Shown one piece after another: positions 41,116 to 63,264 of a stretch of 64,000 bases of DNA. Location: contig QCCH01000002.1 of assembly GCA_003281315.1 (NCBI GenBank), positions 1 to 64,000 of the forward strand, written 5' to 3'. Both the position numbers and the translations under genes were made by a program. Below the pieces are notes generated by a model, which saw only the letters and a list, made by a program, of their open reading frames with translations, had not been told where the DNA came from and did not search any database. This stretch comes from Prochlorococcus sp. AG-347-K20. Its GTDB lineage: Bacteria > Cyanobacteriota > Cyanobacteriia > PCC-6307 > Cyanobiaceae. Positions within the stretch are counted from its first letter, which is position 1; every line of letters starts with the position of its first letter.

Positions 41116-41715
41116 TTAATTCGCATTCTTTAAGTTACTGATATGACCCTCAATTATTAAACGTGCAAATGTGATAAATTTTTTTTCCTTTAGTACTAAC
41201 TTTGTGATTATTGCTTTATCACTTACTCCTTCTTCAGTAATTTTATTATAGAAATATACTGCTTTCTCTAAGGCAGTAACCCCCTCTGCTAAAAGGTCTT
41301 CAATATTATCACTCTCATTTTTAAATTTGTTAGCAGTTTTAATGATATGCAGCACTAATTGATCAGTATCCTCTGTAGGTTTGTACTCCTCACTTTGCAA
41401 AGTACTATCGACAAATAAATCATATCTTGCTTTTTTATAATCATTTCTTGTCACATATATTTTTATAGTTTCTGTAAGTGAATTTAGTGTTTCTTTTGAG
41501 ATGCTTCTTTTGAGTGATTTATCTTTTTCATTTGTTTTGAGATTTATTTTTTTCAGTGCTATTTGTTCAATTTTTATTACCCTTTCTTTTGAGATATTTA
41601 ATTTTTTTCCTATATCACTATGGGTATGGCGTTCATTATCATTTAAACCAAATCTTAATTCGAGGACTCTTAATTCTGTTTCCTCCAAATAAGACAGAAA
41701 ATCAGTTGGGAACAT
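41116..41715 (-). CDS. Sigma-70-like protein with regions 4 and 2 in swapped order
   Basis: A 199-residue protein. Residues 5-55 match sigma region 4: LEETELRVLELRFGL, then the helix-turn-helix HSDIGKKLNISKERVIKIEQIALKKI. Residues about 118-197 match region 2: LVLHIIKTANKF, then DNIEDLLAEGVTALEKAVYFY like the DLIQEGNIGLxxAVxxF of region 2.2, then KKFITFARLIIEGHISNLKN like the FSTYAxxxIxGxIxxxLR of regions 2.3-2.4. About 18 extra residues separate the region 2 parts. In known sigma factors region 2 precedes region 4, so the order here is reversed, as in a circular permutation. The assignment is by eye; region 4 is firmer than region 2. Confidence 0.6.
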   Translation of the reverse strand: MFPTDFLSYLEETELRVLELRFGLNDNERHTHSDIGKKLNISKERVIKIEQIALKKINLKTNEKDKSLKRSISKETLNSLTETIKIYVTRNDYKKARYDLFVDSTLQSEEYKPTEDTDQLVLHIIKTANKFKNESDNIEDLLAEGVTALEKAVYFYNKITEEGVSDKAIITKLVLKEKKFITFARLIIEGHISNLKNAN

Positions 41716-42854: not shown

Positions 42855-42878
42855 TCGGTTTGTCACGGGTTTGTCACA
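42855..42878 (+). repeat. Right pair of GTTTGTCAC direct repeats
   Basis: GTTTGTCACG at 42858-42867 and GTTTGTCACA at 42869-42878, with the same 11-base spacing and TCG leader as the left pair at 40058-40081. Over the 23 bases 42855-42877 there is one mismatch to 40058-40080. Both pairs point the same way. Confidence 0.75.
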
Positions 42879-42941
42879 GGAATTGCCACTTCAAAGAATT
42901 CAATGATACCAATAGGTTTCAATGTTTAAAATCAACTGGTT

Positions 42942-42958
42942 CTACTGAGTGGGAGTAA
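42942..42958 (+). repeat. Right attachment-like site (guaA end remnant)
   Basis: CTACTGAGTGGGAGTAA, a degenerate copy of the last 17 bases of guaA, in the same orientation and coding for TEWE-stop in the same frame. It marks the probable right border of the element. TGATACCAATAGGTTT at 42904-42919, 16 bases before the extended match, is shared with the argJ insertion. Confidence 0.6.
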
Positions 42959-43031
42959 GTCTTCAAATTTTAAAAAAAAATTTAAAGTTTTTTACTTAAG
43001 CAAGAAATTTTTAAATGAGATTTAAAATCTA

Positions 43032-43745
43032 ATGCCCGATATTATTAAATTAAGTCGATCTACAGTTGAGAAATATCTTAGTTGCCCAAGATGTTGTGTA
43101 CTTGATAAAAAATATCAAATAAAACCGCCATCATTGCCATTTACTTTAAATATAGCTGTAGATAATTTATGTAAAAATGAATTTGATTATTATAGAAAAA
43201 TTCAGGAGCCGCATCCTTTATTTATTGAATATGGAATTGATGCTGTGCCTTTCAAACACAAAGATTTAGAACGTTGGAGAAGTAATTTTCAAGGGATAAG
43301 ATATAAGTCAATTGAACACAGCTATGACTTTGGTGGAGCTGTAGATGATATTTGGCAGAAAAAAAATGGTCATCTTATTATCGTTGATGTAAAAGCAACA
43401 TCTAGAATTAATTTTGATTGGTTTGATACTTTTAATAAATACGAATATGCAAAAGCTTATAAAAGACAGTTAGAAATGTATCAGTGGTTGTTTAAAAAAA
43501 ACGGTTTTCATGTGGCTAAAGAAGCTTATCTTTTATATTTCAATGGCAAGAAAAATGAAGAGTTTTTTAATAACCAATTAAATTTTGACGTACACTTAAT
43601 TAAATTAGATTGTTCTACTTCATGGGTAGAAAATAAGATAATTGATACTGTGAATTTATTGCGTTCGGATAACTTCCCCAAACCTTCTTTAAATTGTGAA
43701 TACTGTAATTATTTAAAGAAGCGTTGGCAGTTGTCGATAACTTAA
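43032..43745 (+). CDS. PD-(D/E)XK nuclease-superfamily (Cas4/RecB-like) protein
   Basis: A 237-residue protein with the RecB/Cas4-type nuclease pattern. It starts with LSRSTVEKYLSCPRCCVLDKKY; the catalytic core is GGAVDDIWQKKNGHLIIVDVKATS (D and DxK positions), and a downstream motif is KRQLEMYQWLF (QxxxY). A C-terminal cysteine pair CEYCNY, together with N-terminal cysteines, could bind a 4Fe-4S cluster as in Cas4 and AddB. No cas genes or CRISPR array are in the window, so a repair role is more likely. It lies just outside the right border of the guaA element. Confidence 0.75.
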   Translation: MPDIIKLSRSTVEKYLSCPRCCVLDKKYQIKPPSLPFTLNIAVDNLCKNEFDYYRKIQEPHPLFIEYGIDAVPFKHKDLERWRSNFQGIRYKSIEHSYDFGGAVDDIWQKKNGHLIIVDVKATSRINFDWFDTFNKYEYAKAYKRQLEMYQWLFKKNGFHVAKEAYLLYFNGKKNEEFFNNQLNFDVHLIKLDCSTSWVENKIIDTVNLLRSDNFPKPSLNCEYCNYLKKRWQLSIT

Positions 43746-43825
43746 TATTCGTAGGATAATTTTTTATATTTCTGGAAAAATAGTGAATAAAAGATAATCT
43801 TTAAATAGATTATTAATTTAGACTT

Positions 43826-44434
43826 TTGATAAAATCGAAAAATTCTGAAAGAAAGATAACTAATCATCTCCAACAAGATGTAGTGAAGGTATCTGGTAAA
43901 ACAATTTTTATTAATCCTTTTTTATATTGGCGGAGATTTGACGAAAATACTAATAGATGGCTTAGAGAACCTGGTCAAATGTCAGAGGATCAAATCTCAC
44001 CAAATAGGAACCGTTTTTATCCAGAAATAGAGTGGGCTGATCTAAGTCATGAGCAAAAGCTCATAAAAGATGCAACTGTTGAGATGTTTTTAAAAACTCT
44101 TGAATTGATAAGTACATTTCATCCTTATCTTAGTTCCGGACAATTATTAGAAGTGGAGAGAAAAATGGCAATTATAAAAAAGATTCCTTTCGAAAAGTGG
44201 GTAACAAAATCTTTCGCTAAAAAAGCGAGATTGCTAGAAAATGAAAAAAGAAAATTTCAAAGAGAAAGATTTTATAGTAGCTGGAGGGAATGGTTCACTC
44301 TAGTAAATACTCAACAAGCCATTTTGCCGTTAATCGTCATGATATTTATTTCTTCATTCATAGGATGGTCTTTAGGGATATCAAAGAATAGTTGTAATCC
44401 ATATTTTGAACAAAATATAGAACAATTAAATTAA
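43826..44434 (+). CDS. Membrane-anchored hypothetical protein
   Basis: A 202-residue protein starting at TTG. It has a soluble N-terminal part with FINPFLYWRRFDENTNRWLREPGQMSEDQ and a central helix-rich region, EVERKMAIIKKIPFEKWVTKSFAKKARLLENEKRK. One C-terminal membrane segment (about residues 168-188, AILPLIVMIFISSFIGWSLGI) follows. I do not recognise a named family. Topology suggests a cytoplasmic domain tethered by its tail. Confidence 0.65.
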   Translation: MIKSKNSERKITNHLQQDVVKVSGKTIFINPFLYWRRFDENTNRWLREPGQMSEDQISPNRNRFYPEIEWADLSHEQKLIKDATVEMFLKTLELISTFHPYLSSGQLLEVERKMAIIKKIPFEKWVTKSFAKKARLLENEKRKFQRERFYSSWREWFTLVNTQQAILPLIVMIFISSFIGWSLGISKNSCNPYFEQNIEQLN

Positions 44435-44541
44435 TTTCTTTTTGATCTTTTTTAAGTATCTAAGTTAATAAAATTTTGAAAAAATAAATTTTTTATTTAA
44501 AATTAGATTAATTGAAATAATTGTCTAAAAAGTATAAGTTT

Positions 44542-44685
44542 ATGAGTGAAAATTTAAATTCAAATAATATCGATAATGATGAGTTGAATCTCATCACTGA
44601 AGACAGTGATTATACAGATCTAATCACTAGACTTAATGAGCTAAAATCAACCATTGCTTTATTAGAAAAAACAATATTTAAATAA
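44542..44685 (+). CDS. 47-residue acidic coiled-coil protein
   Basis: A short gene with a clean ATG and the sequence pattern MSENLNSNNIDNDELNLITED followed by a heptad-like stretch LITRLNELKSTIALLEKTIFK. The N-terminal half is acidic. It sits in the 262-base gap between the membrane protein and PBP2 and ends 11 bases before the PBP2 start, with A/T-rich but non-repetitive codons. It is not recognised; its position and start make it a credible small gene. Confidence 0.6.
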   Translation: MSENLNSNNIDNDELNLITEDSDYTDLITRLNELKSTIALLEKTIFK

Positions 44686-44696
44686 ATTTTATATTT

Positions 44697-46487
44697 TTGA
44701 TAAAAACAAGTCCTAATAAAAAACTTATTTCATTAAAGAGACAACCTTTAGTATTACTTATTTTTTCTTCTATATCATTTTTATTGATTCTATGTAGGTT
44801 AATTTTTTTACAACTTTTAAATTATGAATCTTTTAAGAAGCTGTCAGATGAGAATAGGATCAGACTTATTGCTTCACAGCCAATACGCGGAAGAATACTA
44901 GATAAAAATGGTTATGTCTTAGCAGATAGTAGAGTTAAATATTCTTTAATAGTAAAGCCTCAATCTGTTAATAAAAGCAATTGGGAAAAACATAAATCAA
45001 GTATTTCTAACTTATTAAATATTGATAGTAATGTAATTCAAAAAAAATATTCTGATGGTCTAATAAATCAGAAACTTTCAGTAATTATTCTTGATGATTT
45101 AAATGTAGATCAAATAATAAAATTTCAGGAGAATGAAAGTACTTTAATTAGTTTTGAAATAGCTACCAAATTAATTAGAAATTATCCTTATAAATCCCTT
45201 GCTGCCCATGTAATTGGTTATACTCAGCCAATTACTGAATTAGAATTTAAATTCTTATCTAAGAATGGTTATAAATTAAATGACTTAATCGGTAGAACTG
45301 GTATTGAATATGTTTACGAAGATTTTATAAGAGGTGAATGGGGTGGAGAAATGGTTGAAGTAAATTCATTAGGAAAATTTCAAAGATCATTGGGTATAAG
45401 ACCTCCAGTTCAAGGTAATGATATTGAACTAACACTAGACCTTAATCTGCAATTAGTTGCTGAGGAAGTTCTTAAAGATAAAAAAGCTGGAGCCATAATA
45501 GTTATGGATCCAAGAGATGGTGCAATAAAAGCAATGACAAGTAAACCTACATTTGATTTAAATTTTTTTTCAAAGGATTTTAAACCTGAGAAAGAATATA
45601 ATAAACTTTTTAATTCTCCTGAAAAACCATTATTTAATAGAGCATTAAATGCCTACGATCCAGGAAGCGTTTGGAAAATTGTAACGGCTTTAGCTGGCTT
45701 GGAAAGTGGAAAATTCCCTAGAGAAACCATGTTAGATACGAAACCATGTATAACTTATGGAAGCCAATGTTTTAGAGAGCATAATGATTTAGGCTTTGGG
45801 GTAATAGGCTATGAAGATGCTTTAAGAGTTTCAAGTAATACATTTTTTTATCAAGTAGGTTATGGAGTAGGAGTTGATGAAATTCATAAGGTCTCACGAA
45901 AGCTTGGTTTTAATTCTTTATCTGGAATTGAAATTTCTGAACAAGAAAATATAGGATTAGTAGCTAGTAGTGAATGGGCTAAAGAAGGCAGAGGATGGGG
46001 GCAACCAGGAAGAACCCCTTGGGTTCCAGAAGATATTGCTAGTATGTCTATCGGACAATTTGTTGTGCAAGTTACCCCTATTCAAATAGCTAGAGCATAT
46101 GCTGCAATTGCAAATGGAGGTTATTTAGTTACTCCTTATTTAGTTAAAAAAGGTGAAGAAAATCTTTCAGATAAAAAACTTATTAAAATCGATATTGATT
46201 CAAATAATATTCAGTTGATAAAAAGTGGTCTCAGAAAAGTAGTCGAGTCTGGCACAGGAGTATCAATTAATTATGGAGTTTCAAATTTACCTCCAGTTTC
46301 AGGCAAAACTGGAACTGCTGAAGATGGTGAAGGCGGATTAGATCACGCTTGGTTCGTTTGCTTTACTCCCTCTGAAAAAAGCGAATTACTAATAGTTGCT
46401 TTTGCACAAAATACTCCTGGTGGAGGATCTGTTCATGCACTGCCTATGGCTAGAGAAATTTTGAAAGTTTGGAATGAAAAAAAATGA
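44697..46487 (+). CDS. Penicillin-binding protein 2-type transpeptidase
   Basis: A class B PBP, 596 residues, that cross-links peptidoglycan; the overall layout is PBP2 (MrdA)-like. One N-terminal membrane segment (about residues 17-38) is followed by a dimerisation domain with RGRILDKNGYVLADSR. In the transpeptidase domain the catalytic serine S324 is in DPGSVWKIV (SxxK), SSNTFF gives SxN, and SGKTGTAE gives KTG. The start is TTG. It follows the 47-residue gene by 11 bases and is convergent with the FMN reductase. Confidence 0.92.
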   Translation: MIKTSPNKKLISLKRQPLVLLIFSSISFLLILCRLIFLQLLNYESFKKLSDENRIRLIASQPIRGRILDKNGYVLADSRVKYSLIVKPQSVNKSNWEKHKSSISNLLNIDSNVIQKKYSDGLINQKLSVIILDDLNVDQIIKFQENESTLISFEIATKLIRNYPYKSLAAHVIGYTQPITELEFKFLSKNGYKLNDLIGRTGIEYVYEDFIRGEWGGEMVEVNSLGKFQRSLGIRPPVQGNDIELTLDLNLQLVAEEVLKDKKAGAIIVMDPRDGAIKAMTSKPTFDLNFFSKDFKPEKEYNKLFNSPEKPLFNRALNAYDPGSVWKIVTALAGLESGKFPRETMLDTKPCITYGSQCFREHNDLGFGVIGYEDALRVSSNTFFYQVGYGVGVDEIHKVSRKLGFNSLSGIEISEQENIGLVASSEWAKEGRGWGQPGRTPWVPEDIASMSIGQFVVQVTPIQIARAYAAIANGGYLVTPYLVKKGEENLSDKKLIKIDIDSNNIQLIKSGLRKVVESGTGVSINYGVSNLPPVSGKTGTAEDGEGGLDHAWFVCFTPSEKSELLIVAFAQNTPGGGSVHALPMAREILKVWNEKK

Positions 46488-46509
46488 AATTTTATTAGGT
46501 TTTAAATCT

Positions 46510-47034
46510 TTATGTTTTTAATTTTTTCATTTGTAAAAGTCTTTGAATAATATCTTCAATAGTTTTTGTATCTATAGGTTTACTATATGAGGACAAAAGT
46601 TGTCTTCCTAATACTTGACTTCCTAAATGCACTAATTGAATGCGTAATGAGGTCAGTAGTTCTAACCCTATGCCACCAGAAAATGTTGCAATTGCAATCG
46701 GTTGACCATTAAATAAATTCCTAAAGTCATCTCCAGAAATAGAAAGCCATGCTATGAAGTTGGTGAGAATGGGAGGTATAGATCCATTATATTCAGGCGC
46801 ACAAATCACCCACTTTTCAATCTTGAAAAGCTTTTTTTTTAATTCTTCTATTTCACTTGGAATATTTTCTTTGCTGTGAATTCTTGGATTAAATAATGGA
46901 ATATCAAGAGTAGTAAGATCTAAAATTTCAGAACTTATTTTAAGTTCATTACTTTTTTCAAGAAATTTTTCAGAAAGTTCTAGATTTTTGCCACAACTAG
47001 CCGTAATAATTATTAGGTCTTTTGTTTCAGTCAT
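46510..47034 (-). CDS. NADPH-dependent FMN reductase-family protein
   Basis: A 174-residue flavodoxin-like quinone/FMN reductase. The N-terminal IITASCGKNLELSEKF resembles the GSxRxxSxN phosphate loop, and CAPEYNGSIPPILTNFIAWLS is the family signature. It is on the same strand as, and just downstream of, the flavodiiron pair, so it may help supply reduced flavin or serve electron transfer. That link is inferred from position only. Confidence 0.82.
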   Translation of the reverse strand: MTETKDLIIITASCGKNLELSEKFLEKSNELKISSEILDLTTLDIPLFNPRIHSKENIPSEIEELKKKLFKIEKWVICAPEYNGSIPPILTNFIAWLSISGDDFRNLFNGQPIAIATFSGGIGLELLTSLRIQLVHLGSQVLGRQLLSSYSKPIDTKTIEDIIQRLLQMKKLKT

Positions 47035-47051
47035 AAATTAGATAAATAAAT

Positions 47052-48854
47052 TTAATAGTTAGCACCTGTTTTGCGGTGATGAACTGCCGTTAGACTATCG
47101 GATTTTAGTATATTACCGTGTAGTACTTCGGCGTAAATTACCCAATGATCTCCACATTCCATTCTCTCTTTTACAGAAGCATCTAACCATGCGAGCGATT
47201 CAGGAATGATTATCTGTTCATTAGGAGTTAATTCAATATTTATTCCTTCAAATCTATCTTCTCCAGGTGCAAAGGGCTTTGTGAATCTTTTCAAAGGTTC
47301 CTTAAAATCTTTTTCACTAAGAATATTTAATGCGAATGAATCTCCTATTTGCAAAAGAGACTCTACCGATCTATCTTTTGCTACTGCAATACTTAAGCCG
47401 GGAGGAGAAAAACTCGCTTGACTAACCCAAGATGCAAGCATAGCACCTTTAATATTATTCTCATCTTTGCCTTTAGAGGCTGTCAGGACACAAAGTGAAC
47501 CAATTACTCTTCCAAGAGCTTGTAGCTTTGGATCCGTTTTGCTAGTAATCATTCCAGTATCTGATTTTCTGGGTTTTTTCTTTGCTGTTTTAATAATTTT
47601 TCTTCCAAAGTGAGTTCCTATTTCTTCTAATTCTTTAATCTTTGGTTTATTTGGACTGAATTTAATTCTTATAGGGTCAAAACTAAACTTAAAACCACCG
47701 TCTTTTAATTTTGTTTCAAGTAAATCTATAGCTTCGCCGCTCCAGCCAAAACTGCCAAAGATTCCCACTGGCTTATCTCTATTACCCTCTGCTAACAAAG
47801 TTCCTAGTGCACTAACTATTGGAGTTGGGGCGTGACCACCCAATGTGGGTGAGCCTATTAAATATCCATCAGCATTTTGGATTGATTTTACAATTACATC
47901 ATTAGGTGTGAATTCACAATTAATACTTTCAACTTCTACAGAAGTTCTATTTATCCCTTTAGCCAATGCATCACCTATCGAGGCTGTATTTCCATATGCA
48001 CTAGCATATATCAGCGCGATCTTAGGATTATTTGTTGAGAGATTTTCTCCCCATCTAATATAGTCATTTAAAAAGCTTTTTAAGCTGTACTCGATCGCGG
48101 GACCATGTAATGGTGCAATAGTTTTAATGTCATAATCTGCAATTTTTTCAGTTATTGATACTACTTGATTAGACATTGGTGCCATCAAGCAATCATAAAA
48201 ATGTTTCCTATCAATTTCTGTACTAACTCGATTTGTTTCAGACCAATATTTAGATGCAATGTGTGCAGAGAAAAATTTTTCACTAAGAAGTATTTCTTGA
48301 TTACGTTCATAAATTATCAGACCACCAGGCCAACGTGCTGTTGGAATAGGAATTAACTCTAGTGAGATGTTATCTAATTCTAAATTAAGTTCTTTTTTGA
48401 TTATTTTTATTTCAGGTAATTGAATTTCAATAAAGTTTTCAAAGGTAGGATTTCTTTGGTTCCAAAGTTCGCTAATAAGCTTATAACCTGGATTTGAGCA
48501 AGTAATAGTTGTGTTTTGAAATTGGGTACTTATATTCTTTATAGTTTCAATAATTTGGGGATTAATATGACCAGAAATGAAGTTGATTTTATCTAATTTA
48601 AATTGATCGCAAAACTTAGAAATTATTCTATTAAACGAATCTAAATATTTTTTCTCAGGTGGATGAATAATAAAAAGTTCCTCATGACTTCTAATGAAAA
48701 AAGTATTAAAAGAGGTTCCTTTTTCAAGGTTAAATTCAAGTTCAAATCTTTCTTTATTTTGGTCTAAGAATCTTACACAAGAAAAATTTTCAGTAATTTC
48801 AAATTCTGATAAATCTTGATTTTCTGCAAGTACGCCTATATTAATATCTGACAT
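47052..48854 (-). CDS. flv1: Flavodiiron protein, Flv1-like
   Basis: One of a pair of cyanobacterial flavodiiron proteins, 600 residues: metallo-beta-lactamase-like diiron domain, flavodoxin domain (IALIYASAYGNTASIGDALAKGI), then a flavin-reductase domain. The diiron ligands are degenerate: the usual HxExDH motif reads SGHINPQIIE. That is typical of Flv1 rather than the ligand-complete Flv3. Flv1 and Flv3 form a heterodimer that reduces O2 to water, draining electrons after photosystem I without making H2O2. flv3 lies 16 bases upstream. Confidence 0.9.
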   Translation of the reverse strand: MSDINIGVLAENQDLSEFEITENFSCVRFLDQNKERFELEFNLEKGTSFNTFFIRSHEELFIIHPPEKKYLDSFNRIISKFCDQFKLDKINFISGHINPQIIETIKNISTQFQNTTITCSNPGYKLISELWNQRNPTFENFIEIQLPEIKIIKKELNLELDNISLELIPIPTARWPGGLIIYERNQEILLSEKFFSAHIASKYWSETNRVSTEIDRKHFYDCLMAPMSNQVVSITEKIADYDIKTIAPLHGPAIEYSLKSFLNDYIRWGENLSTNNPKIALIYASAYGNTASIGDALAKGINRTSVEVESINCEFTPNDVIVKSIQNADGYLIGSPTLGGHAPTPIVSALGTLLAEGNRDKPVGIFGSFGWSGEAIDLLETKLKDGGFKFSFDPIRIKFSPNKPKIKELEEIGTHFGRKIIKTAKKKPRKSDTGMITSKTDPKLQALGRVIGSLCVLTASKGKDENNIKGAMLASWVSQASFSPPGLSIAVAKDRSVESLLQIGDSFALNILSEKDFKEPLKRFTKPFAPGEDRFEGINIELTPNEQIIIPESLAWLDASVKERMECGDHWVIYAEVLHGNILKSDSLTAVHHRKTGANY

Positions 48855-48870
48855 TTTAAAGGCTTATTTT

Positions 48871-50646
48871 TTAATAGTGATTAGCAACTTTTCTGTGATG
48901 AACTGCTGTCTTGCATGATAAGTCAGAAACATTACCGTTTTCAACAATTCCGTAAATTATCCAATGGTCTGGAGTCTCCAGTCTTGAACTGACTTTACAA
49001 TCTAAAAAGGCGAGTGAATCTGAGAGAACAGGTCCTCCTTCAGCGATGTTGCTAATTACATCTACATCCGCAAATCTATCAGCTCCAGGAGCAAATCTTT
49101 TTAAAAAATGTCTGAACATTTTTTGATAGTTATCTTCTCTCAAGATATTCACAACAAAACCTTTACCAACTTGCATATATGATTCAATAGCTCTATCTTT
49201 TGCTACTGCAACTGTAATACCTGGTGGAGAAAAGCTTGCTTGACTAACCCAACTTGCGACCATTGCACTTTGTCTAAATGTCGAACCTTCCCCTTGACTA
49301 GCTGTTACTACATATAATCCTCCACTTAATCTACCTAACGCTTTATCTAAATTTGAATCAAGGCTCTTCATAGAGGCAATATTCTTCTTTTTATTGATCA
49401 ATTGACCCAAATCAGTTCCAGCTTCTTCGAATTGTTGATAAACAATCGGATCTGGAATGTTTTTAACTCTTAGGGGAGAGAAAGCTTCTTTTTGACCAAG
49501 TTCTCTTAATTTATTTGCTAAGGAATCTATGGGTTCATCATTTCCACCAAATGCATCATAAACTGCAGTAAATTGTTTTGGCTTTAGTGCTGCAAATAAA
49601 GTACCGAGAGATTCTTTTAATTCATTATCTGAGTCTACAGGCCATGTGGGAATGACTACTGCTTTTGATTCGGAAATTAAACTTGTTAATTCTTGCGGGT
49701 CAGAAGATCTTAGATCAATTAACTGAACCTGAGCATCTGCTTTGCTTATTCCATGAGATATCGCTTGACTGAGTCGATCACAATAACCATAGTCGCTTAT
49801 GTAGCAGACTGACACAAAATCATTGCCTTTGCTTTTATTGCTACTCCATTCTAGATATTTTCCTTTCCAAAAATTGACCTGATTATGGAGCAAAGGCCCA
49901 TGACCAACAGCTATTGTTTTTAATTCAGGTAGCTTATCTATTCTTTTAATTGCCTGCATAACGCTTCTAGCGTTTGGACCCATAAGGCAATCGTAATAAA
50001 AACGGAAATCATCGTATATTTCTTTTTGATCAGTGTCAAAAAATTCGTCAGAACAATAATGGAGTCCAAAAGCATCGCATGTATAGAGAACATTTGTGCT
50101 GTGATCATATGAAAATATGGTATCTGGCCAATGCAAATTTGGTGCACTTATAAATTCAATATTATGTTCTAAACCACTATTAGGATTAGTTCCGAGATTT
50201 AAAAACTCTCCACTCTTAACCTCTAGTCGTTTAAAGGGAATATGTATTTGGTCTTCAATAAATTTAAGTGCTAATTTTGATCCAACTACTGTGATATTTT
50301 GGTTTAATTCTAAAAGATTACCTATTAAACCAGAATGATCAGGTTCTGTATGGCTAGTAATTAGATAATCAACTTCTTGCGGATTTACCTTTTTCAGTAA
50401 TTCTTCAAACCATAATTCTTCAAACTTTGCGTGACTAGTATCAATGATTGCTAGTTTCTCGCCTTTAATAATAAAACTATTGTAAGTAGTTCCATTTCTT
50501 AAACCAAATTCAATATCAAATCTACTGCGATCCCAATCCAAAGATCTTATGGCACAAGAATCATCAGCAAAGTTTTGAGATTGAACCGTCAACTTGTTAT
50601 TAGTTTGTGCCAATTTAGAATTACTTGTCTGGGCAGAGGCTATCAT
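48871..50646 (-). CDS. flv3: Flavodiiron protein, Flv3-like
   Basis: A 591-residue flavodiiron protein with intact diiron ligands: TSHTEPDHSGLIG (HxExDH), LHWPDTIF, TCDAFGLH and VGHGPLLH. A flavodoxin domain (VCYISDYGYCDRLSQAISHGI) and a C-terminal flavin reductase domain follow. Complete ligands next to a degenerate partner fit Flv3 of the photoprotective Flv1/Flv3 pair. It is the first gene of the minus-strand flv3-flv1-FMN reductase unit, divergent from alaS across 119 bases. Confidence 0.92.
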   Translation of the reverse strand: MIASAQTSNSKLAQTNNKLTVQSQNFADDSCAIRSLDWDRSRFDIEFGLRNGTTYNSFIIKGEKLAIIDTSHAKFEELWFEELLKKVNPQEVDYLITSHTEPDHSGLIGNLLELNQNITVVGSKLALKFIEDQIHIPFKRLEVKSGEFLNLGTNPNSGLEHNIEFISAPNLHWPDTIFSYDHSTNVLYTCDAFGLHYCSDEFFDTDQKEIYDDFRFYYDCLMGPNARSVMQAIKRIDKLPELKTIAVGHGPLLHNQVNFWKGKYLEWSSNKSKGNDFVSVCYISDYGYCDRLSQAISHGISKADAQVQLIDLRSSDPQELTSLISESKAVVIPTWPVDSDNELKESLGTLFAALKPKQFTAVYDAFGGNDEPIDSLANKLRELGQKEAFSPLRVKNIPDPIVYQQFEEAGTDLGQLINKKKNIASMKSLDSNLDKALGRLSGGLYVVTASQGEGSTFRQSAMVASWVSQASFSPPGITVAVAKDRAIESYMQVGKGFVVNILREDNYQKMFRHFLKRFAPGADRFADVDVISNIAEGGPVLSDSLAFLDCKVSSRLETPDHWIIYGIVENGNVSDLSCKTAVHHRKVANHY

Positions 50647-50765
50647 AGAATAATTAGCTTTATAAATTAACTTTAGTTATATAGAATATAAATTCGCGTG
50701 ATTATCTTTGCGAAATAACAGAAATTACGCTTTTCTTTAATTTTTAATCTTCTTATTCTGGATAA

Positions 50766-53426: not shown

Positions 53427-55357
53427 CTACTTTTTCTGAGACTAATTTCGATTTGATCCATTAATTTCCTTGCTTCTTCAATAGTTAATTTTTTTTGATC
53501 AATTGCTGATTCAGTATTAATTCTTATAGATTCAACCAAAGAAGCTGAACTGTAATCTAATAATTGTAAAATTTCAGATTTACTGTCCTCTTTAATAATA
53601 TTTCTGACCTTATATGAATTATCTTGATTTATGTCTATATGAACAACGTTGGTACTGCCAAATAAATTGTGCAAGTTTCCTAATGCTTCTTGATAGGCTC
53701 CAGTCATAAAAATTCCAATTAGGTAATCTTTATCTTCTTCTGGCTTATGCAAATTTAGTAGTGATTTAATTTTTCCATTATCAATAAAATTATTTAGTTT
53801 CCCATCTGAATCACAAGTTAAATCTGCAAAGTTGCCTTTGCAGAACGGCTCCTCTAAGTGCCTATGTATTGGTACTATTGGAAAAATTTGATTTATTGCC
53901 CAGCTATCAGGAATAGATTTAAATATAGATAAATTAGCATAATAAGTTGATGCAAGAGTTTCTGTAATTTCAGATAAATCAGGGTGATTGATTTCATCAT
54001 TATTCAGGTTATTAGAAATTTCTTTTGCGCAAGCCCAAGTAAGTTCTTCGGCATAAGCTCTTTCTGCCAAACTTAAAAATCCTAATCTAAAAGCGACTAA
54101 GCAATCTTCTTTAAACTTTTTTGCATCATTCCATAGTTCAATTATTTGAGATAAATTTATTTTTTTATTTTTAAGTTTTTTTAATTCATAGAAAGTATCA
54201 AGTAAATTTGAAATTATTAATTGTTGATTTTTTTTATCAAAAATTTGTAGTTTGGAACTGACATGACTTGTTCCTAAGACATTAAAAATTAAAACTGAAC
54301 AATGACTAATTATTGCTCTTCCACTTTCTGAGATTATGGTTGGATGCTTGATATTATTTAATTCACATGAATCCTTAATAGTTGCAATTACATCGTTAGC
54401 ATAATTTTGGAGAGAATAATTAGTAGAAGTGTTGGAGGAGGTTTTAGTTCCATCAAAATCTATTCCTAATCCACCCCCAACGTCGATATATTGCATTGGG
54501 GCTCCTAGTTTGCATAGTTCAACATATATTTGACTCGCTTCTTGTAATGCGTCTTTGATCACAGCAATATCACTTATTTGACTGCCTATATGAAAATGGA
54601 GCAATTTCATTTCGTTGATAAGATTTGCTTCTTTTAGTTCTTTTATTGTCAACATAATTTCTGGGATTGATAATCCAAATTTGGAATTATCTCCAATAGA
54701 TTTACCCCACCTACCACTACTTTTACTTGATAATTTTGCTCTTATTCCTATCAATGGAGTCGCGTTAAGTTCTTGAACTGCTTGAATAATTCTTTTTACC
54801 TCATCTCGTTGTTCAATAACTATTATTGGATTTTTGCCGAGTTTTCTGGCCAAAGTAGCAATCTCAATATATTTTTTATCTTTATATCCGTTGCATATTA
54901 ATAATGAATTTTGGTTTTCAAGAAGTGCAAGGCCAATTAATAGTTCTGATTTACTTCCTACTTCTAAACCAAAATTCCATTGGCTACCAAACTCTATTAT
55001 CTTTTCTAGGACATTTTTCTGTTGATTACATTTGACAGGAAAAACGCCTTGATAAATGTTCTTATATTTATAGGTTTTTATTGCTTTTAAAAAAGAGTCA
55101 TGTAATGCATTTATTCGATCTTTCAAGATATCATTAAATCTTATGATTAATGGAGGATTTATTTCTCTACTCTTAAGTTCTTTGACAAGCTTAAAAAGAT
55201 CAATCTTATTTTCAGATTTTATATCTTTAGTTACTGATATATTTCCTTTGGAATTTATAGAAAAATATTTATCTCCCCATTTGTCTATGTTATAAGTCGA
55301 AATACTATCTTCAATAGTCCATATATTCTTGAATTTTTTCGGCTCAAAATTGGTCAA
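53411..55357 (-). CDS. speA: Biosynthetic arginine decarboxylase
   Basis: PLP-dependent fold-III decarboxylase making agmatine for polyamines, 648 residues. The PLP lysine is in [13 protein letters not shown], glycine-rich LHFHIGSQ and [12 protein letters not shown] follow, and the C-terminal catalytic region has DLTCDSDG. Length and layout match the cyanobacterial/plant SpeA type rather than the ornithine enzyme. Convergent overlap of 16 bases with alaS. Confidence 0.94.
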
Positions 55358-55479
55358 TTTATGTCTTAGTGATTAATAAATGTTTTTGAAAATAACTTAA
55401 AACAATATCTTTTATTTTAATGATTACTTGCCAAGTTACCACCCAAAAGTTGAATATACATAGAGTGATTATTAACTAA

Positions 55480-55938
55480 ATGACCAAAGAGAGAACCTTT
55501 ATTGCAATTAAACCAGATGGAGTTCAAAGAGGATATGTTTCTGAGATTATTGGCAGATTTGAAAAAAAAGGATTTAAATTGGTTGGATTAAAGCAATTAA
55601 TTCCTTCAAAAGAACTTGCTCAAAATCATTATGGAGTACATAGAGAAAGACCCTTTTTTGGTGATTTAGTTGACTTTATTTCAAGTGGTCCTGTTGTAGC
55701 AATGGTGTGGGAAGGCGAAGGAGTTATTTTAAGTGCTAGAAAACTAATAGGTGCAACAAAACCTCTGGAAGCAGAGCCTGGAACAATTAGAGGTGATTTA
55801 GCTATTGATATTGGGAGGAATATTATTCATGGTTCTGATGGAGAAGATACAGCAAAATTTGAAATTGATCTATGGTTTAACGAAGAGGAATTATGTGAGT
55901 GGGAAACTTCTGATTCGAAATGGCGATCTGAAAATTAA
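55480..55938 (+). CDS. ndk: Nucleoside diphosphate kinase
   Basis: Equilibrates nucleoside triphosphates via a phospho-histidine. The 152 residues match the family, with [15 protein letters not shown] at the start and the active-site histidine in NIIHGSDG. The end [12 protein letters not shown] is usual for cyanobacterial Ndk. It ends 3 bases before the convergent oxidase gene and is divergent from speA by 122 bases. Confidence 0.97.
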
Positions 55939-55941
55939 AAT

Positions 55942-57051
55942 TTAAATCGCAAATCTATCTAAACTAAATTTTTCTAAAAAGCTTTTCTCTATTTCTTTGA
56001 GATTTTTATTTTGAACTATTTTCAAAAGAAGATCACTTGTTATTGCAGAAAATAAAACTCCATTTCTGTAATGTCCTGTAGCTATATAAAGATTTTCAAT
56101 TTTTGATTTTCCAATTATTGGTTTTAGATCTGGTGTGCAAGGTCTAAAGCCCCACCAATGTTCCATTTGTGGCCAATTAATAGCTTCTGGCAATAAAGAG
56201 CGAATGCCTTCTTGCAGTTGTTTTATTCCATTAGGAGTATTACCTTGATTAAATTTTGAATCTTTTTCAACTGTCGCTCCAACTATGATAAGTCCATCAT
56301 CACGGGGAACTAGATAAGTTTTTGGACCAAAAATAACCCTTTTCAAAAAATTTGTTGGACCTTGTATTGATAGCATTTGTCCCTTTACAGGAAAGACTGG
56401 AATCTTATTAAAAATTTTTTTACTCCATGCACCGCTGCATATAATTGCTTTTTCGCAGTTAATTTTTTTTATTTCCCCAGTGGCACATAAAACTTTTGCA
56501 CCTGTAATTTTGTTTTTTTCGAATGTCAAATCCTCTACTTCTGATCCCTCTTGAAATTCGACTCCATTCAAGGAGCATGCTCTCTCAAGAGCACGCATCA
56601 GTTTTCTTCGGTTATCTATTTGACCATCTTGTTCAAAAAGTAAACCATGTTTCCAAATAGAATTCATTCCATTGATTTCTGTTTGAAGATCTTTGTGATT
56701 TAAATATTTTCCATATTCATAAGTGGGAAACTCTTCAAGATCTTCTTTTTTTTTAAAAGGAACTACTATGCCACATTTTTTTAAACCGCATTCAATATTA
56801 CTATCTTGTTCAATACTTTGTATCCACTTTGGAATTAGATTTTGACTTTCTTGGCCAAATTTTAGTAATTCATCTTCGAGCCCTTCGGCATGAGTAGCTA
56901 ACATTCCTGCAGCCACAAATCCAGCTGATTCATTTCTGTTTTTGCTTAAAACTAAAACTTTGAAGTTATTTCTAGAAAATTCATAAGCAATAGATAAACC
57001 TAAAAGTCCACCTCCAATGATTAATATTGAATTTTTGGTATCTTGTGCCAT
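55942..57051 (-). CDS. FAD-dependent glycine/D-amino acid oxidase-like (ThiO)
   Basis: A DAO-family flavoprotein, 369 residues. The dinucleotide-binding IIGGGLLGLSIAYEFSR is at the N-terminus, and AAGMLATHAEGL and FRPCTPDLKPIIG lie toward the C-terminus. The resemblance is to glycine oxidase ThiO, which supplies the imine for thiazole synthesis in thiamine biosynthesis; thiL also lies in this window. A different small amine substrate is possible. Confidence 0.85.
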   Translation of the reverse strand: MAQDTKNSILIIGGGLLGLSIAYEFSRNNFKVLVLSKNRNESAGFVAAGMLATHAEGLEDELLKFGQESQNLIPKWIQSIEQDSNIECGLKKCGIVVPFKKKEDLEEFPTYEYGKYLNHKDLQTEINGMNSIWKHGLLFEQDGQIDNRRKLMRALERACSLNGVEFQEGSEVEDLTFEKNKITGAKVLCATGEIKKINCEKAIICSGAWSKKIFNKIPVFPVKGQMLSIQGPTNFLKRVIFGPKTYLVPRDDGLIIVGATVEKDSKFNQGNTPNGIKQLQEGIRSLLPEAINWPQMEHWWGFRPCTPDLKPIIGKSKIENLYIATGHYRNGVLFSAITSDLLLKIVQNKNLKEIEKSFLEKFSLDRFAI

Positions 57052-57130
57052 TTAAAAATTAATATTTTTATTTGTGTTTTGGTCCTCTTTTCCTTTATAT
57101 CCAATAATATTAATAAAGAGACTTTTAATA

Positions 57131-58603
57131 ATGAACAATTTAGAATCTTGGGAAGCTGTGATTGGTTTGGAAACTCATGTACAGCTTAATACGAAAAGTA
57201 AAATATTCACATCTGCGTCTACAGCTTTTGGTGATGCACCTAATACCCATATAGATCCTGTAGTTTGTGGGTTACCAGGAACTCTTCCAGTTCTGAATGA
57301 GACTGTTCTTGAGTATGCTGTAAAAACTTCGTTAGCATTAAATTTAAATGTTGCAGAACATTGTAAATTTGATAGAAAACAATATTTTTATCCTGATCTT
57401 CCTAAAAATTATCAAATTTCACAATTTGATGAGCCACTAGCTGAAAATGGTTGGTTAGAGGTTGAAATAATTGAAAAAGACAAAGAACCTTATATAAAAA
57501 AAATTGGTATAGAAAGGCTACATATGGAAGAAGACGCCGGAAAACTAGTCCATTCAGGAAGTGATAGATTAGCTGGCTCTAAGTATTCTTTAGTTGATTA
57601 CAATCGTGCCGGAATAGCACTTTGTGAGATTGTAAGTAAACCAGATATTAGATCAGGTAAAGAGGCATCTGAATATGCTTCAGAGATTAGAAGAACAGTT
57701 AGATATCTAGGGGTATCAGATGGAAATATGCAAGAGGGTTCATTACGCTGCGATGTCAATATTTCAGTTAGAAAAGGACCTAATGCTCCTTTTGGTACCA
57801 AAGTGGAAATAAAAAATATGAATTCATTTTCTGCAATTCAAAAGGCTTGTGATTATGAAATAGCCAGACAAATAGAAGTTTATGAAAATGGAGGAAAAAT
57901 TTTCCAAGAAACAAGGTTATGGGATGAAGCTAAGCAATTAACGAAAAGTATGAGATTAAAAGAAGGTAGCAGTGACTATAGATATTTTCCTGATCCTGAC
58001 TTAGGTCCAATTGAAATAACAAAAGCCCAACAAGAAATATGGTTTAAAGAACTACCAGAATTACCTTCAAAGAAAAGATATAAATATATAAGTCAATTTG
58101 GGTTGTCTGCATATGATGCAAGGGTAATTTCTGATGAAATAAGCATGGCAAACTTTTTTGAAGCAACAGTAGCAAATGGTGCTGAGGCTAAACTAGCTTC
58201 AAATTGGGTAACAAGTGATATTGTGGGCTATTTAAAATCAAACAAACTAAGTTTTAGTGAATTAAAGCTTAGTCCTGAAAATCTTGCTGAAATGATTAAC
58301 ATGATTTCAAAAAATATAATTAGTGGAAAAATTGCAAAAGAAATTTTACCTGAACTTATTCAAAAAAATATTTCCCCGAAAAAATTAGTAGAAGAAAAAG
58401 GGTTGGCAATGATATCTGATTCTTCAAGTATTTCACCAATAATTGATGAACTTATAAATGAACATCCAAATGAAGTTCAAGCATTTAAAAATGGCAAAAC
58501 TAAGTTACTTGGTTTTTTTGTTGGTCAACTTATGAAAAGAACAAAAGGTAAAGCTGACCCTAAACTTGCAAATAAACTTCTTATGGAAAAATTAAATAGC
58601 TAA
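57131..58603 (+). CDS. gatB: Aspartyl/glutamyl-tRNA amidotransferase subunit B
   Basis: Part of the GatCAB complex that turns mischarged Glu-tRNA-Gln into Gln-tRNA-Gln. I chose the ATG at 57131 (MNNLESWEAVIGLETHVQL, 490 residues, the family length); a GTG at 57074 would add 19 unconserved residues. Signatures are GLETHVQL, QYFYPDLPKNYQISQFD, HMEEDAGKL and GSLRCDVNISVR, with the C-terminal GatB/Yqey tail. gatA and gatC are elsewhere. It ends 3 bases from the convergent coaE stop. Confidence 0.95.
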   Translation: MNNLESWEAVIGLETHVQLNTKSKIFTSASTAFGDAPNTHIDPVVCGLPGTLPVLNETVLEYAVKTSLALNLNVAEHCKFDRKQYFYPDLPKNYQISQFDEPLAENGWLEVEIIEKDKEPYIKKIGIERLHMEEDAGKLVHSGSDRLAGSKYSLVDYNRAGIALCEIVSKPDIRSGKEASEYASEIRRTVRYLGVSDGNMQEGSLRCDVNISVRKGPNAPFGTKVEIKNMNSFSAIQKACDYEIARQIEVYENGGKIFQETRLWDEAKQLTKSMRLKEGSSDYRYFPDPDLGPIEITKAQQEIWFKELPELPSKKRYKYISQFGLSAYDARVISDEISMANFFEATVANGAEAKLASNWVTSDIVGYLKSNKLSFSELKLSPENLAEMINMISKNIISGKIAKEILPELIQKNISPKKLVEEKGLAMISDSSSISPIIDELINEHPNEVQAFKNGKTKLLGFFVGQLMKRTKGKADPKLANKLLMEKLNS

Positions 58604-58606
58604 AGC

Positions 58607-59224
58607 TTAAAGAAGCTCTTTTATCGTATTGATCCATTTATTTTGATCATCCGAATTCTCTAAAATAATATCTGATAATTTTCTTTTTTCTTCAAAACTT
58701 AATTGAAAATTTATCAATTCATATGCTTCTTTTTCGCTAATTTTATCTCTTGTGATAAGTCTGTTCTTTTGTATTTCTTTAGGACATTTAACTAACCATA
58801 TTTCAGTGCAAATATCTTCAAATTTTGCTTCAAACAATAATGGAATAACCAATACTATAGTTTGATTATTTCTGTATTGACTGCATTCTTCTATCATTCT
58901 TTCTTTAATTAAGGGGTGAAGTAGTTTTTCAATCCATTCCTTGCTTGCTGAATGTTTAAAAATAATTTTCCTTAAAAGTTTTCTGTTTATTTCCCTTTCT
59001 GAATTGCTTTTATTATCAATAATTTTATTTCCAAAATAATCTAAAATTTTCTTATATCCATATGTGTTTGGTTTGATTAATTCTCTTGAAAAATGATCTG
59101 CATCTAATATTGGTATGTTTTTATGTTTTCTTATGTAATTAGTTATGGTTGTCTTCCCACTTGCAATACCTCCTGTTAAACCAATCCTTCTTTGGTTGTT
59201 TTTTAATTTTTGAAGAATATCCAT
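58607..59224 (-). CDS. coaE: Dephospho-CoA kinase
   Basis: The last step of coenzyme A synthesis, 205 residues, P-loop IGLTGGIASGKTTITNYI at residues about 17-33. DADHFSRELI follows, then LVIPLLFEAKFEDICTEIWLV, and the substrate-contact end segment. Divergent from argJ by 76 bases. Confidence 0.93.
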   Translation of the reverse strand: MDILQKLKNNQRRIGLTGGIASGKTTITNYIRKHKNIPILDADHFSRELIKPNTYGYKKILDYFGNKIIDNKSNSEREINRKLLRKIIFKHSASKEWIEKLLHPLIKERMIEECSQYRNNQTIVLVIPLLFEAKFEDICTEIWLVKCPKEIQKNRLITRDKISEKEAYELINFQLSFEEKRKLSDIILENSDDQNKWINTIKELL

Positions 59225-59300
59225 ATAATTAATAATAATCTAATTACTTAGTTTCTTAAGTATTAAAGAGTAGTTAGTATGAATTAAAATACCAAAAAAT

Positions 59301-60539
59301 TTGAGCCAGTTAGATTCCAATTGGTCGTTTGTTGATGACAGTAAGGTAATACCCAAGGGGTTTCTTTTTGCTGGGATATCTGCTGGTTTAAAAGCTTCTA
59401 ATAAAAAAGATTTAGCACTAATACTCGCTCCAGAAGGAAGTATTTTTAGTGGGATGTTTACTCAATCAATTGTTCGAGCTTCTTGTGTGGATATTTGTGA
59501 GGAAAGGATTAAAACAACTTCAGGTTTTGTAAGAGCAATACTAATTAATTCTGGTCAAGCAAATGCATGTACGGGAAATCTTGGCATTCAACATTTTCAA
59601 ATTGCTACAGGAAAGATTGCGGAACTTTTAGGTATAAAAGAAGAAGAAGTTTTAATGTGCTCAACTGGTGTAATTGGTGTTCCAATACAAATAAATGATT
59701 TAGTAAAAAATTTACCGAATTTAGTTAGTGATTTAAAGGGTAATAATTTTGCAAATGCAGCAGAAGCAATTTTAACTACTGATTTGACTTTGAAAAAAGT
59801 GTCAATAGAGACGATTATTCAAGGTAGAAAAATAAAAATAGCAGGATTTGCAAAAGGTTCAGGAATGATTTGCCCCAACATGGCTACAATGCTTGCTTTT
59901 CTAACCTGTGATGCGGGTATTCAAAAAGAAGAATGGGACAAAATGATTGCTATTGCGGTTCAAAAATCTTTTAATGCAATATCAGTTGATGGAGAGACAA
60001 GCACAAATGATTCTTTTGTTGGAATAAATGCAGGAGAGAAAATTGAAAAAAGGTTTTTTCCAATTATCCAGCAAGGGATTGATATTGTATGTCAGAACTT
60101 GGCAAAAAATATTGCAAGGGATGGAGAGGGAGCAAATTGTTTATTAGAAGTTTTGGTTCAAGGAGCAAAAAATACAGATGATGCAATTATTCTCGCGAAA
60201 TCTATCTGTAATTCTGCCTTGGTAAAAACTGCGATACATGGTTGTGATCCGAATTGGGGACGAATCATTTCTGCTGCAGGTAATTCTGGAGTTAAATTTA
60301 ATTTTAATGACGTTGACTTGTGTATAGGAAACGCCCAGATTTTGGAAAAAGGCAAGTTAAATAAATATGATCCACAAAAAGTCACAGACTATATTAAGTC
60401 CAGAATGAAAGGTAGATATTTAGTAGATGATATTGTAAAAATTATGATTAATCTAAATTCTGGCGAATCGAAAGGTACAGCTTGGGGGTGCGATCTTTCT
60501 AAAAAATATGTTGAAATAAATAGCGAATATACGACTTGA
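59301..60539 (+). CDS. argJ: Glutamate N-acetyltransferase / ornithine acetyltransferase
   Basis: Bifunctional arginine pathway enzyme that recycles the acetyl group. The autocleavage site that makes the alpha and beta chains is before nucleophile T196 in GMICPNMATMLAF. The start is TTG at 59301, and the 412 residues match the family. The last 21 bases end in the repeat AATAGCGAATATAC (60519-60532) plus GACTTGA. The 14-mer recurs at 60989-61002, marking an insertion. Confidence 0.95.
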   Translation: MSQLDSNWSFVDDSKVIPKGFLFAGISAGLKASNKKDLALILAPEGSIFSGMFTQSIVRASCVDICEERIKTTSGFVRAILINSGQANACTGNLGIQHFQIATGKIAELLGIKEEEVLMCSTGVIGVPIQINDLVKNLPNLVSDLKGNNFANAAEAILTTDLTLKKVSIETIIQGRKIKIAGFAKGSGMICPNMATMLAFLTCDAGIQKEEWDKMIAIAVQKSFNAISVDGETSTNDSFVGINAGEKIEKRFFPIIQQGIDIVCQNLAKNIARDGEGANCLLEVLVQGAKNTDDAIILAKSICNSALVKTAIHGCDPNWGRIISAAGNSGVKFNFNDVDLCIGNAQILEKGKLNKYDPQKVTDYIKSRMKGRYLVDDIVKIMINLNSGESKGTAWGCDLSKKYVEINSEYTT

Positions 60540-60677
60540 TTCAAATCCATTGTAGGACGGTCGATTTCAGTGATCTAAATTATATAACGATGTTATAATC
60601 CTTGATTTCCACATAAAAATTATTTGTTAAAGAAATTCAGTTTTTCTAAAATAGTGAGTAATAAGTTTTTGTTATTA

Positions 60678-60833
60678 ATGAAAAAATATTTAATTTCTGG
60701 TTTAGTTGACACTTATAGAATCAAATTAAATTTATTTGCTTTATCTCCAAATAGTGCAATAAGTATTTTTAAACAAAAGTATCCAACCGCAGAAGATGTT
60801 TATGTAATACAAGATTTATTTAAGAGAAAATAA
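60678..60833 (+). CDS. 51-residue YVIQDLFK-family small protein
   Basis: An ATG at 60678 gives 51 residues, starting MKKYLISGLVDTYRIKLNLFALSP and ending in KQKYPTAEDVYVIQDLFKRK. An upstream TTG at 60624 would add 18. It reads like a compact alpha/beta domain, but no named family is recognised. It is homologous at its C-terminus to the broken copy in the guaA element (41020-41100), with 46 of 50 bases identical in that part. It is the only gene in the argJ insertion. Confidence 0.6.
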   Translation: MKKYLISGLVDTYRIKLNLFALSPNSAISIFKQKYPTAEDVYVIQDLFKRK

Positions 60834-60862
60834 TATTTATATTTATTCTTTAGTAGCACTTT

Positions 60863-60934
60863 TATAACACTAGTTCAGTGATATCAATGGGTTTGACCCT
60901 GTGGAAAAAGGTTTGTAACACCTATATAACACTA
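60863..60934 (+). repeat. TATAACACTA direct repeats and 11-bp pair
   Basis: TATAACACTA occurs at 60863-60872 and 60925-60934. GTTTGTAACAC (60911-60921) and CTATATAACAC (60922-60932) form an 11-base tandem pair, which parallels the GTTTGTCAC pairs at the guaA locus. TGATATCAATGGGTTT at 60879-60894 and TGATACCAATAGATTT at 60956-60971 flank the pair. Confidence 0.6.
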
Positions 60935-60988
60935 ATTTTGGAAGTAAGAACCTAGTGATACCAATAGATTTGGGAGTATATATGTATT

Positions 60989-61002
60989 AATAGCGAATAT
61001 AC
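60989..61002 (+). repeat. Right copy of argJ end repeat
   Basis: AATAGCGAATATAC, identical to 60519-60532 in argJ. Its last base is the first base of the complement of the stop codon of the convergent small membrane protein gene, so the insertion separates two genes whose ends once probably met. Confidence 0.65.
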
Positions 61003-61244
61003 TATTTAATTTTTAGTAAATCTAATGGTAGATATTCATTTATATAGAGAAAAAGTATTGTTAAAGTTCCAATTACAGAGCCTATAAAACCTCCAAAAAA
61101 ATTAACTAATAATCCAGATTGTCTAATCGTTGCTTCTTCGTTCTTTTCTTCTTCAAAATTAGAAGAATCAACTACTTTTAAGCGCTGATTGGTTGTTGGT
61201 TGTTTAAGTTGTTGGTGTCGGATGAGGGCTTCGAAATCAGGCAT
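61002..61244 (-). CDS. Small membrane protein overlapping parA-like gene
   Basis: Starting at the ATG at 61244 (MPDFEALIRHQQLKQPTTN) it has 80 residues; an earlier start at 61268 is possible. It is charged for about 45 residues, with one C-terminal membrane segment (LLVNFFGGFIGSVIGTLTILFLYI). It overlaps the end of the ParA-like gene by 67 bases in another frame, so the two are probably coupled. It could be a membrane anchor or partner for the ATPase; this is inferred from overlap only. Confidence 0.6.
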   Translation of the reverse strand: MPDFEALIRHQQLKQPTTNQRLKVVDSSNFEEEKNEEATIRQSGLLVNFFGGFIGSVIGTLTILFLYINEYLPLDLLKIK

Positions 61245-63109: not shown

Positions 63110-63264
63110 TTTGCAAGATTCGATTTTTTAATAAGATAAATTAATTTAAAACTTATCTTCTCAGTATTTATACTTATAAAATTAAAAAAATTCTTTTTAA
63201 TACAAGCATTAGCAGCAATATTTACACACTAATAAATTATCTATTACAACTTCTTAGTTATTTC

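Follow-up and report, generated by a model that had tools for sequence, protein, structure and literature searches.

Two integrase-less units at the guaA and argJ gene ends of a Prochlorococcus genome probably belong to families of site-specific integrative elements

The 64,000-bp stretch of DNA analysed here, referred to as the window, comprises bases 1-64000 of contig 2 (QCCH01000002.1) in the 1.51-Mb, 30-contig genome of Prochlorococcus sp. AG-347-K20 (GCA_003281315.1), and contains two units bounded by duplicated gene ends, one behind guaA, encoding GMP synthase, and one behind argJ. All features lie on the forward strand unless noted otherwise. The guaA open reading frame (ORF, 38375-39961) ends in the left attachment-site (attL)-side core ATTGAGTGGGAATAA (39947-39961). 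This is followed by a degenerate pair of arm repeats (GGTTTATCACGCACAC, 39999-40014), a TGATACC motif (40035-40050) and a second left arm pair, GGTTTGTCACG-AGTTTGTCAC (40060-40080), ~112 bp from the core, which is recovered by repeat analysis, by the arm-pair search and by the left-flank lag test described below. The motif, detected as a repeat, thus lies between both left arm pairs, and related left motifs score with the motif model. At the right end the arm pair GGTTTGTCACG-GGTTTGTCAC (42857-42877; repeat analysis and arm-pair search), 87 bp from the core, precedes a second TGATACC motif (42904-42919; motif model), an extended copy of the guaA gene end (42929-42958) and the right attachment-site (attR)-side core ACTGAGTGGGAGTAA (42944-42958). 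Repeat analysis thereby places the duplicated core, GAGTGGGA, at both ends of the unit, with the two gene-end copies 2,997 bp apart. The unit holds an ORF with weak similarity to sigma-70 region 4 (40202-40666; Pfam E=7.7e-4, under the cut-off; PHROG sigma factor 4.1e-6), a reverse-strand ORF of 101 amino acids (aa) with no convincing family in Pfam or PHROG (40699-41004), a reverse-strand ORF with sigma-70 region 4 (41116-41715; Pfam E=3.1e-10) and a gene for a 297-aa protein with a DnaB-like helicase C-terminal domain (41880-42773; Pfam DnaB_C 2.9e-80).

The argJ unit is far smaller, the two gene-end copies being 470 bp apart in the window sequence. The argJ ORF (59301-60539) contains the attL-side core AATAGCGAATATACGAC (60519-60535), identified as a repeat and in the argJ core analysis, and the unit behind it has a single short ORF, 51 aa from its ATG (60678-60833). 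The right end consists of an outer arm pair GTAGCACTTTTATAACACTA (60853-60872), detected as a repeat, an outer motif TGATATCAATGGGTTT (60879-60894), an inner arm pair TTTGTAACACCTATATAACACTA (60912-60934) from the arm-pair search, a further motif TGATACCAATAGATTT (60956-60971) that matches the motif model, and the attR-side core AATAGCGAATATACTAT (60989-61005) from the argJ core analysis. No integrase was found in either unit from the ORF list and Pfam, nor one of the tyrosine-integrase family discussed below elsewhere in the source genome. An earlier note on this DNA had described the right ends of both insertions, including a 16-mer that corresponds to the motifs at 42904-42919 and 60956-60971. 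Window sequence and repeat analysis confirm the features it named, and its reading of both inserts as site-specific insertions that target gene 3' ends and share an end layout (repeat pairs, TGATACC motif, duplicated gene ends) is upheld. It had overlooked the matching left pair at guaA (40060-40080), the degenerate pair (39999-40014) and the second right pair at argJ (60853-60872).

Taken together, the structures in the window are read as the attL and attR ends of two integrase-less integrative units, representing guaA- and argJ-specific branches of a tyrosine-integrase superfamily; a probability of roughly 0.83 is assigned to this reading. Such elements appear to form a superfamily in Prochlorococcus and its family, in which each window insert would belong to a separate family with a gene-dedicated integrase lineage. 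Evidence for insertion comes from unoccupied sites. To obtain likely empty sites, 16 guaA loci were taken from genomes in which the exact core occurs once; 10 of these were empty, with the next gene 70-75 bp behind the guaA stop as compared with 3,070 bp in the window. The remaining six comprised two loci lacking a guaA end, three lacking a downstream gene within the stretch, and one with a distance of 2,118 bp. The right flank of the window unit (GAGTGGGAGTAAGTCTTCAAATTT...) recurs nearly letter for letter in five of the 10 empty sites (L258, L263, L265, L266, L270). Since the flanks of empty sites match that of the window, the right copy is the host's old gene end, the present guaA end having been brought in by the element. 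As judged from this comparison, the window carries a precise insertion of ~3.0 kb at the guaA gene end.

The generality of the end layout was examined with a word-free test, which asks whether the upstream sequence of each non-gene guaA core repeats a 9-mer at a given lag between 8 and 16. A lag-11 repeat was observed directly upstream of 70 of 86 such cores, half of which come from loci found via their arms, and any other lag gave at most 4; the interior control had no lag-11 repeat and never more than 2 repeats at another lag. Among right ends from loci picked by core or integrase rather than by arms, the lag-11 repeat was present in 35 of 43. The arm words themselves vary (GTTTGTCACG, GTTTTACGTG, GTTTGTTGCG, GTTTCACGTG, GTTTCCCGTG, TCACACA and more), each standing at a few fixed distances from the core: 84-88 bp in most ends and 66 in some for GTTTGTCACG, the window guaA word; 87 or 75 for GTTTTACGTG; and 94-97 for GTTTCACGTG and GTTTCCC words, with 106 in two overlapping loci. 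On the left side, at least one lag-11 pair was found in 76 of 121 distinct guaA flanks, the start of the first pair falling mostly within +49 to +54 (50 flanks), with smaller groups at +111 to +113 (9 flanks) and +122 to +126 (14 flanks). Two left pairs were seen in 17 flanks, spaced 58-72 bp apart (9 of them at 61-62), as against 0/128 in a control stretch. The first left pair of the window occupies the position of the +49 to +54 pair elsewhere, yet falls under the lag-11 threshold. Lag 11 is again the preferred period at argJ ends, where any other lag gave at most one match. A common attachment-site architecture thus appears to be general in relatives at both guaA and argJ ends.

This layout also served as a search pattern. 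With at most one mismatch allowed, 30 of the 266 genus genomes contained the guaA arm pair (none for the reversed control), and with at most three, 25 of 265 contained the argJ arm pair (one for the reversed control). Counting the best locus per genome, 28 of the 30 guaA pairs had a guaA core no further than 150 bp away (random points in these loci, 259/1500), and 24 of the 25 argJ pairs had an argJ core. The exact 16-mer, for which the earlier note had proposed a scan, gave seven sites in 6 of 200 genus genomes, with none for the reversed control. Four of these are at guaA or argJ ends, as that note would have it (two in the window, L011, L012), but three lie elsewhere (L009, L010, L013) with neither arm pair nor core alongside. 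Consequently the exact 16-mer is a poor marker and was rejected as such, unlike the end layout, which is a good one. A third near match of the 16-mer in the source genome (L003) shares its neighbourhood with L010 and has no lag-11 pair. The window guaA word with at most two mismatches occurred in 9 of 206 family genomes, its reversed control matching in 4; in five genomes outside the genus (G372, G420, G349, G303, G378) a guaA-type core adjoins such a word, while the matches in G436 and G401, with no guaA-type core alongside, are probably due to chance and were set aside. In viral contigs, neither an exact match to either arm pattern nor a relative of the guaA-integrase profile was found.

The TGATACC motif was treated separately, using a weight matrix derived from 15 distinct guaA ends (consensus GTCAATGATACCAATGACTTTGAA), run on held-out ends and cut at the 95% level of shuffles. 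The matrix matched 11 of 19 distinct ends from other guaA types, as compared with 1 of 41 interior stretches; several of these matches lie on the opposite strand, at an offset of 51-52. Likewise, 8 of 12 distinct argJ ends were matched, two of the 12 resembling argJ gene ends passed by the filter, and 0 of 21 interior stretches. Two left ends at a further target, the flv gene introduced below, scored 1.0 and -0.7, without a match. Because the matrix matches both other guaA types and argJ ends, the motif is shared across arm words and targets, although it does not extend to every end type.

Relatives of the window units do carry integrases. With a 454-aa integrase as query, matches were obtained in 11 of 265 genus genomes. 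The position directly behind guaA is taken by five full-length close relatives (G096, G009, G228, G027, G021) and by one fragment (G078); more distant relatives are found behind flv, a flavodiiron-like gene (G054, G200, G141, G173), or near trmD (G088, G200); the names flv, trmD, hemH, mreB, murA and petM are presumptive, given from the appearance of the proteins. A profile of the five guaA integrases found matches in 33 of 261 family genomes, and among the 25 family loci returned the integrase lies beside a guaA core in 6, an argJ core in 11, an flv gene end in 2 and none of these in 6. The six best family matches are directly behind guaA, two of them with an internal stop. Among solved structures the best relatives of the guaA integrases are an 'Int protein' (6en0, 5.5e-7) and Xer-type chains, with IntI4 reaching E=0.13. 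A structure prediction for one integrase, made without an alignment, had a mean predicted local distance difference test score (pLDDT) of 34.5 and was not used. The earlier note had suggested looking for a co-occurring recombinase gene; a tyrosine integrase adjoins guaA, argJ or flv ends in relatives, but the window units are without one. A ~389-aa PF00589 protein beside a hemH-like gene is an unlikely recombinase for these units; nothing ties it to the cores, to which dedicated integrases are tied. It seems widespread, with many genus genomes among the matches listed. In the source genome (G000) PF00589 gave a single weak match, a partial copy of this protein beside the hemH-like gene, cut by a contig end (L156, contig 22).

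A maximum-likelihood tree of 35 integrases bears directly on how the targets are chosen. The nine guaA integrases form one clade (100/100) and the 11 argJ integrases another (99/94); the six flv-site integrases need two changes, because one integrase of unknown site falls among them. The earlier note had concluded that one recombination machinery with relaxed target choice serves different gene 3' ends. The end layout and motif common to both genes, and a helicase gene found in a guaA unit as well as in an argJ unit, are what a single integrase inserting at guaA, argJ and other gene ends would predict. The recombinases of both families are indeed related, but they are split by target into separate supported clades, and the 11 best guaA-type matches with the neighbour seen (five in the genus, six in the family) are all behind guaA. 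The arm words, moreover, differ between guaA and argJ sites and also between elements at one site, contrary to relaxed choice. A single relaxed integrase is accordingly regarded as highly improbable. Rather, since the guaA and argJ integrases each form one supported clade, target choice appears to be strict by integrase lineage, the target being a lineage trait.

The integrase-bearing elements have the same end geometry as the window units. The 8.8-kb guaA element of G276 has an intact integrase frame, with the integrase first and a resolvase-like gene (judged by eye) last; its arm pairs, GTTTCACACG, lie ~52 and 114 bp behind the left core, with one pair on the right, and a TATCAAGGGTTTT motif stands between the left pairs, so that left and right geometry are as in window-type units, only the arm word being another. 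In the elements of G228, G096, G009 and G027 the integrase comes at or close to the start, and these elements have arm words of their own. Resolvase families were detected in the G228 and G096 elements, and no AlpA or conjugation family in the six proteins scanned from that of G228. At argJ, the integrase side of the core bears GTAACACC-type pairs together with a scoring motif in L232 and L245, and L230, in which an integrase is present, has a GTAACACC-type pair on one side of the core and the motif on the other. The GTAACACC-type words of these three loci are close to the window argJ word. In L244 an integrase lies directly behind argJ itself. Arm words are also held in common with units lacking an integrase: GTTTGTTGCG is shared by the integrase-bearing G228 and the integrase-less L074, L078, L150, L207, L209 and L211, and GTTTCCCGTG by the integrase-bearing G096 and the integrase-less L204.

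Several observations weigh against reading the window structures as ends of such elements. A clear lag-11 repeat is missing from 16 of the 86 guaA right ends, four of which (L071, L201, L202, L205) resemble chance cores within a murA-like gene. At argJ no more than 5 of 16 right ends, and 11 of 28 left flanks, pass the strict lag-11 test; its threshold is 8 of 9, and the frequent GTAACACC/TATAACAC pair reaches 7 of 9. In L163 the gene-end core was missed and a distal core treated as the gene end. In the window itself both the first left guaA pair and the left argJ arm are degenerate. The left pair of the G009 element, CTCACC, is not matched by the pair before the nearest right core, CACATG, but reappears one core further on. 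The matrix missed 8 of the 19 distinct guaA end types, a first argJ motif test with a narrower window that cut through the motif gave 2/5, and left-end tests were weak (guaA 10/69 with 3.5 expected, argJ 5/18 with 0.9 expected). The E. coli IHF consensus is WATCAANNNNTTR, and lambda has IHF sites between arms and core; a host-factor role for the TGATACC motif is suggested by its resemblance to this consensus, its placement between arms and core, and one HU/IHF-family protein in the source genome. Finally, integrase-similarity searches of 265 genus and 261 family genomes returned no integrase associated with the window guaA word, and five array stretches from four non-genus genomes with a word like it contain at most a short integrase fragment.

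Most guaA units resemble those in the window in being small and lacking an integrase. In 56 of 265 genomes a single strand holds two or more copies of the guaA core ATTGAGTGGGARTR (hand count; the reversed pattern gave three single matches), and 81 core-bounded units in 53 loci, some of them overlapping, comprise 5 with a full integrase, 1 with a fragment and 75 with none. Units of at least 250 bp (n=70) have a median length of 1.9 kb, and 37 of these have a single ORF of at least 100 aa. The guaA units thus appear to form tandem, integron-like arrays. Eleven units are shorter than 250 bp; these tiny units may be scars or minimal attachment sites. Those of ~154 bp (L084, L085, L194-L199) consist of little beyond arm pair, motif and core. 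Some tandem units (L053/L075, G230) meet directly at the arm pair, lacking a core at the junction, which looks like a product of homologous recombination. Such junctions are expected under an integrase-free scheme in which RecA-dependent exchange between the repeated cores and arms reshapes the arrays; this scheme leaves both the exact empty sites and the core-tied integrase clades unexplained and is considered unlikely.

The same units could be dead remnants that have lost their integrase and are decaying, the arrays growing by insertion of complete elements followed by deletion. The lack of an integrase of this family in the source genome is consistent with such decay, as are the broken or partial integrases behind guaA (G078, G475) and behind guaA-type cores (G349, G420), the degenerate first left arm and the 11 scar-like units below 250 bp. 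Conversely, most of the units examined, nearly all without integrase, retain their arm pairs, motif and core spacing, and a restriction-modification unit shows 97.4% identity between G025 and G104 while occupying the second array position in one genome and the first in the other. The arm words that integrase-less units share with integrase-bearing elements likewise speak against mere decay, which is seen as possible but on the doubtful side.

The cargo of the units is varied. The helicase gene of the window guaA unit has 87.8% identity over 957 bp with a gene in the argJ unit of G104, where it adjoins a relative of the 51-aa argJ ORF of the window; cargo therefore seems to be shared between guaA and argJ units. 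In a relative search, counterparts of this 51-aa ORF adjoined many argJ right ends, and also an integrase next to a transfer RNA (tRNA)-Thr gene (L125, L137, L146), so that the small protein may be part of recombination modules. A recurrent guaA cargo is a secreted-looking protein starting with MKKRTAFIGAILSLIPLGQPL, in some cases with a TPR-like body (L069, L074-L078, L206, L209 and others); the strict start pattern was found in 14 of 70 units, which have a similar 5' region and varied bodies. Core-bounded stretches of ~7 kb with mreB-like and murA-like genes, judged by eye, were seen in L201, L202, L203 and L205 (G216, G198, G159, G124). Among further guaA and argJ cargo (L213, L214, L217, L161, L166) are a Mokosh-like helicase, a type IIG-like restriction protein, and DNA methyltransferases accompanied by a putative restriction enzyme.

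In mechanistic terms, the integrase would bind the arm repeats via its N-terminal domain, with strand exchange taking place in the gene-end core as in lambda-type recombination and the TGATACC motif acting as a bending site for a host factor of the HU/IHF type. Units without an integrase would depend for movement either on an integrase able to read their arm word or on a complete element next to them that carries them along (accretion). This leads to a tentative proposal, given somewhat less than even odds, of a distributed cassette system: arrayed integrase-less guaA and argJ units, many of them with one gene, would stay mobilizable through an 11-bp arm word matching integrases in a few cells or in related genera, and a host bending protein would read TGATACC; arm words would be swappable, one gene end would serve many integrases, and cargo would pass between guaA and argJ arrays.

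Integrons, too, line up short units behind a single site, many of them with one gene; the units described here differ in ending in gene-end cores, most with arm pairs, and in that the integrase is rare and not IntI. Insertion at the guaA 3' end with a GAGTGGGA core in direct repeat and a site-specific integrase is known for ICERspD18B and GIsul2 (PMC7775301, PMC9376610), and the GIsul2 integrase also moves an integrase-less internal unit at guaA (PMC9376610). The present units are like these islands in target and core, but appear to differ in their cyanobacterial integrase clade, their tandem arrays of mostly small units and their common arm and motif geometry. Cis-mobilizable elements (CIMEs) are defined by the presence of attL and attR in the absence of integration genes, with tandem accretion at one gene end (PMC5704250). 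The window units seem to resemble them in keeping attL and attR without integration genes; the present units are recurrent and small with arms kept, and derivation from a conjugative or mobilizable element belongs to the CIME concept. Tandem islands at a single gene end, some with and some without an integration module, are also described at ssrA in Dehalococcoides (PMC3146451), where a serine recombinase is involved; the present families have a tyrosine integrase and protein-gene targets. Within the same host group, the tycheposons of Prochlorococcus carry cargo and a tyrosine recombinase and are bordered by tRNA genes (PMC10872708), whereas the window units are bordered by the guaA and argJ protein-gene ends and have no tyrosine recombinase. 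ARAGORN detected no tRNA gene in the window, only a transfer-messenger RNA at 63248-63557. Additive flexible genomic islands have cargo blocks separated by recurring tRNA-Lys end copies (PMC10872708); the units here are alike in their gene-end-separated cargo, with guaA and argJ ends and an attachment-site architecture instead. Hence guaA islands, cis-mobilizable elements and additive islands are known parallels. A partial survey of the literature contained no report of argJ as an integration site or of these guaA and argJ arrays, and the argJ family, the common end architecture and the sharing of arm words by integrase-bearing and integrase-less units are apparently new.

Prochlorococcus has small genomes, classically with few mobile elements. 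If the account given here is true, the ties of integrase to gene and of arm word to cassette would amount to a readable code for who can move what. The combinations of integrase, arm word and core named above would then offer concrete pairs for tests of gene flow, including that of restriction and defence-like cargo.

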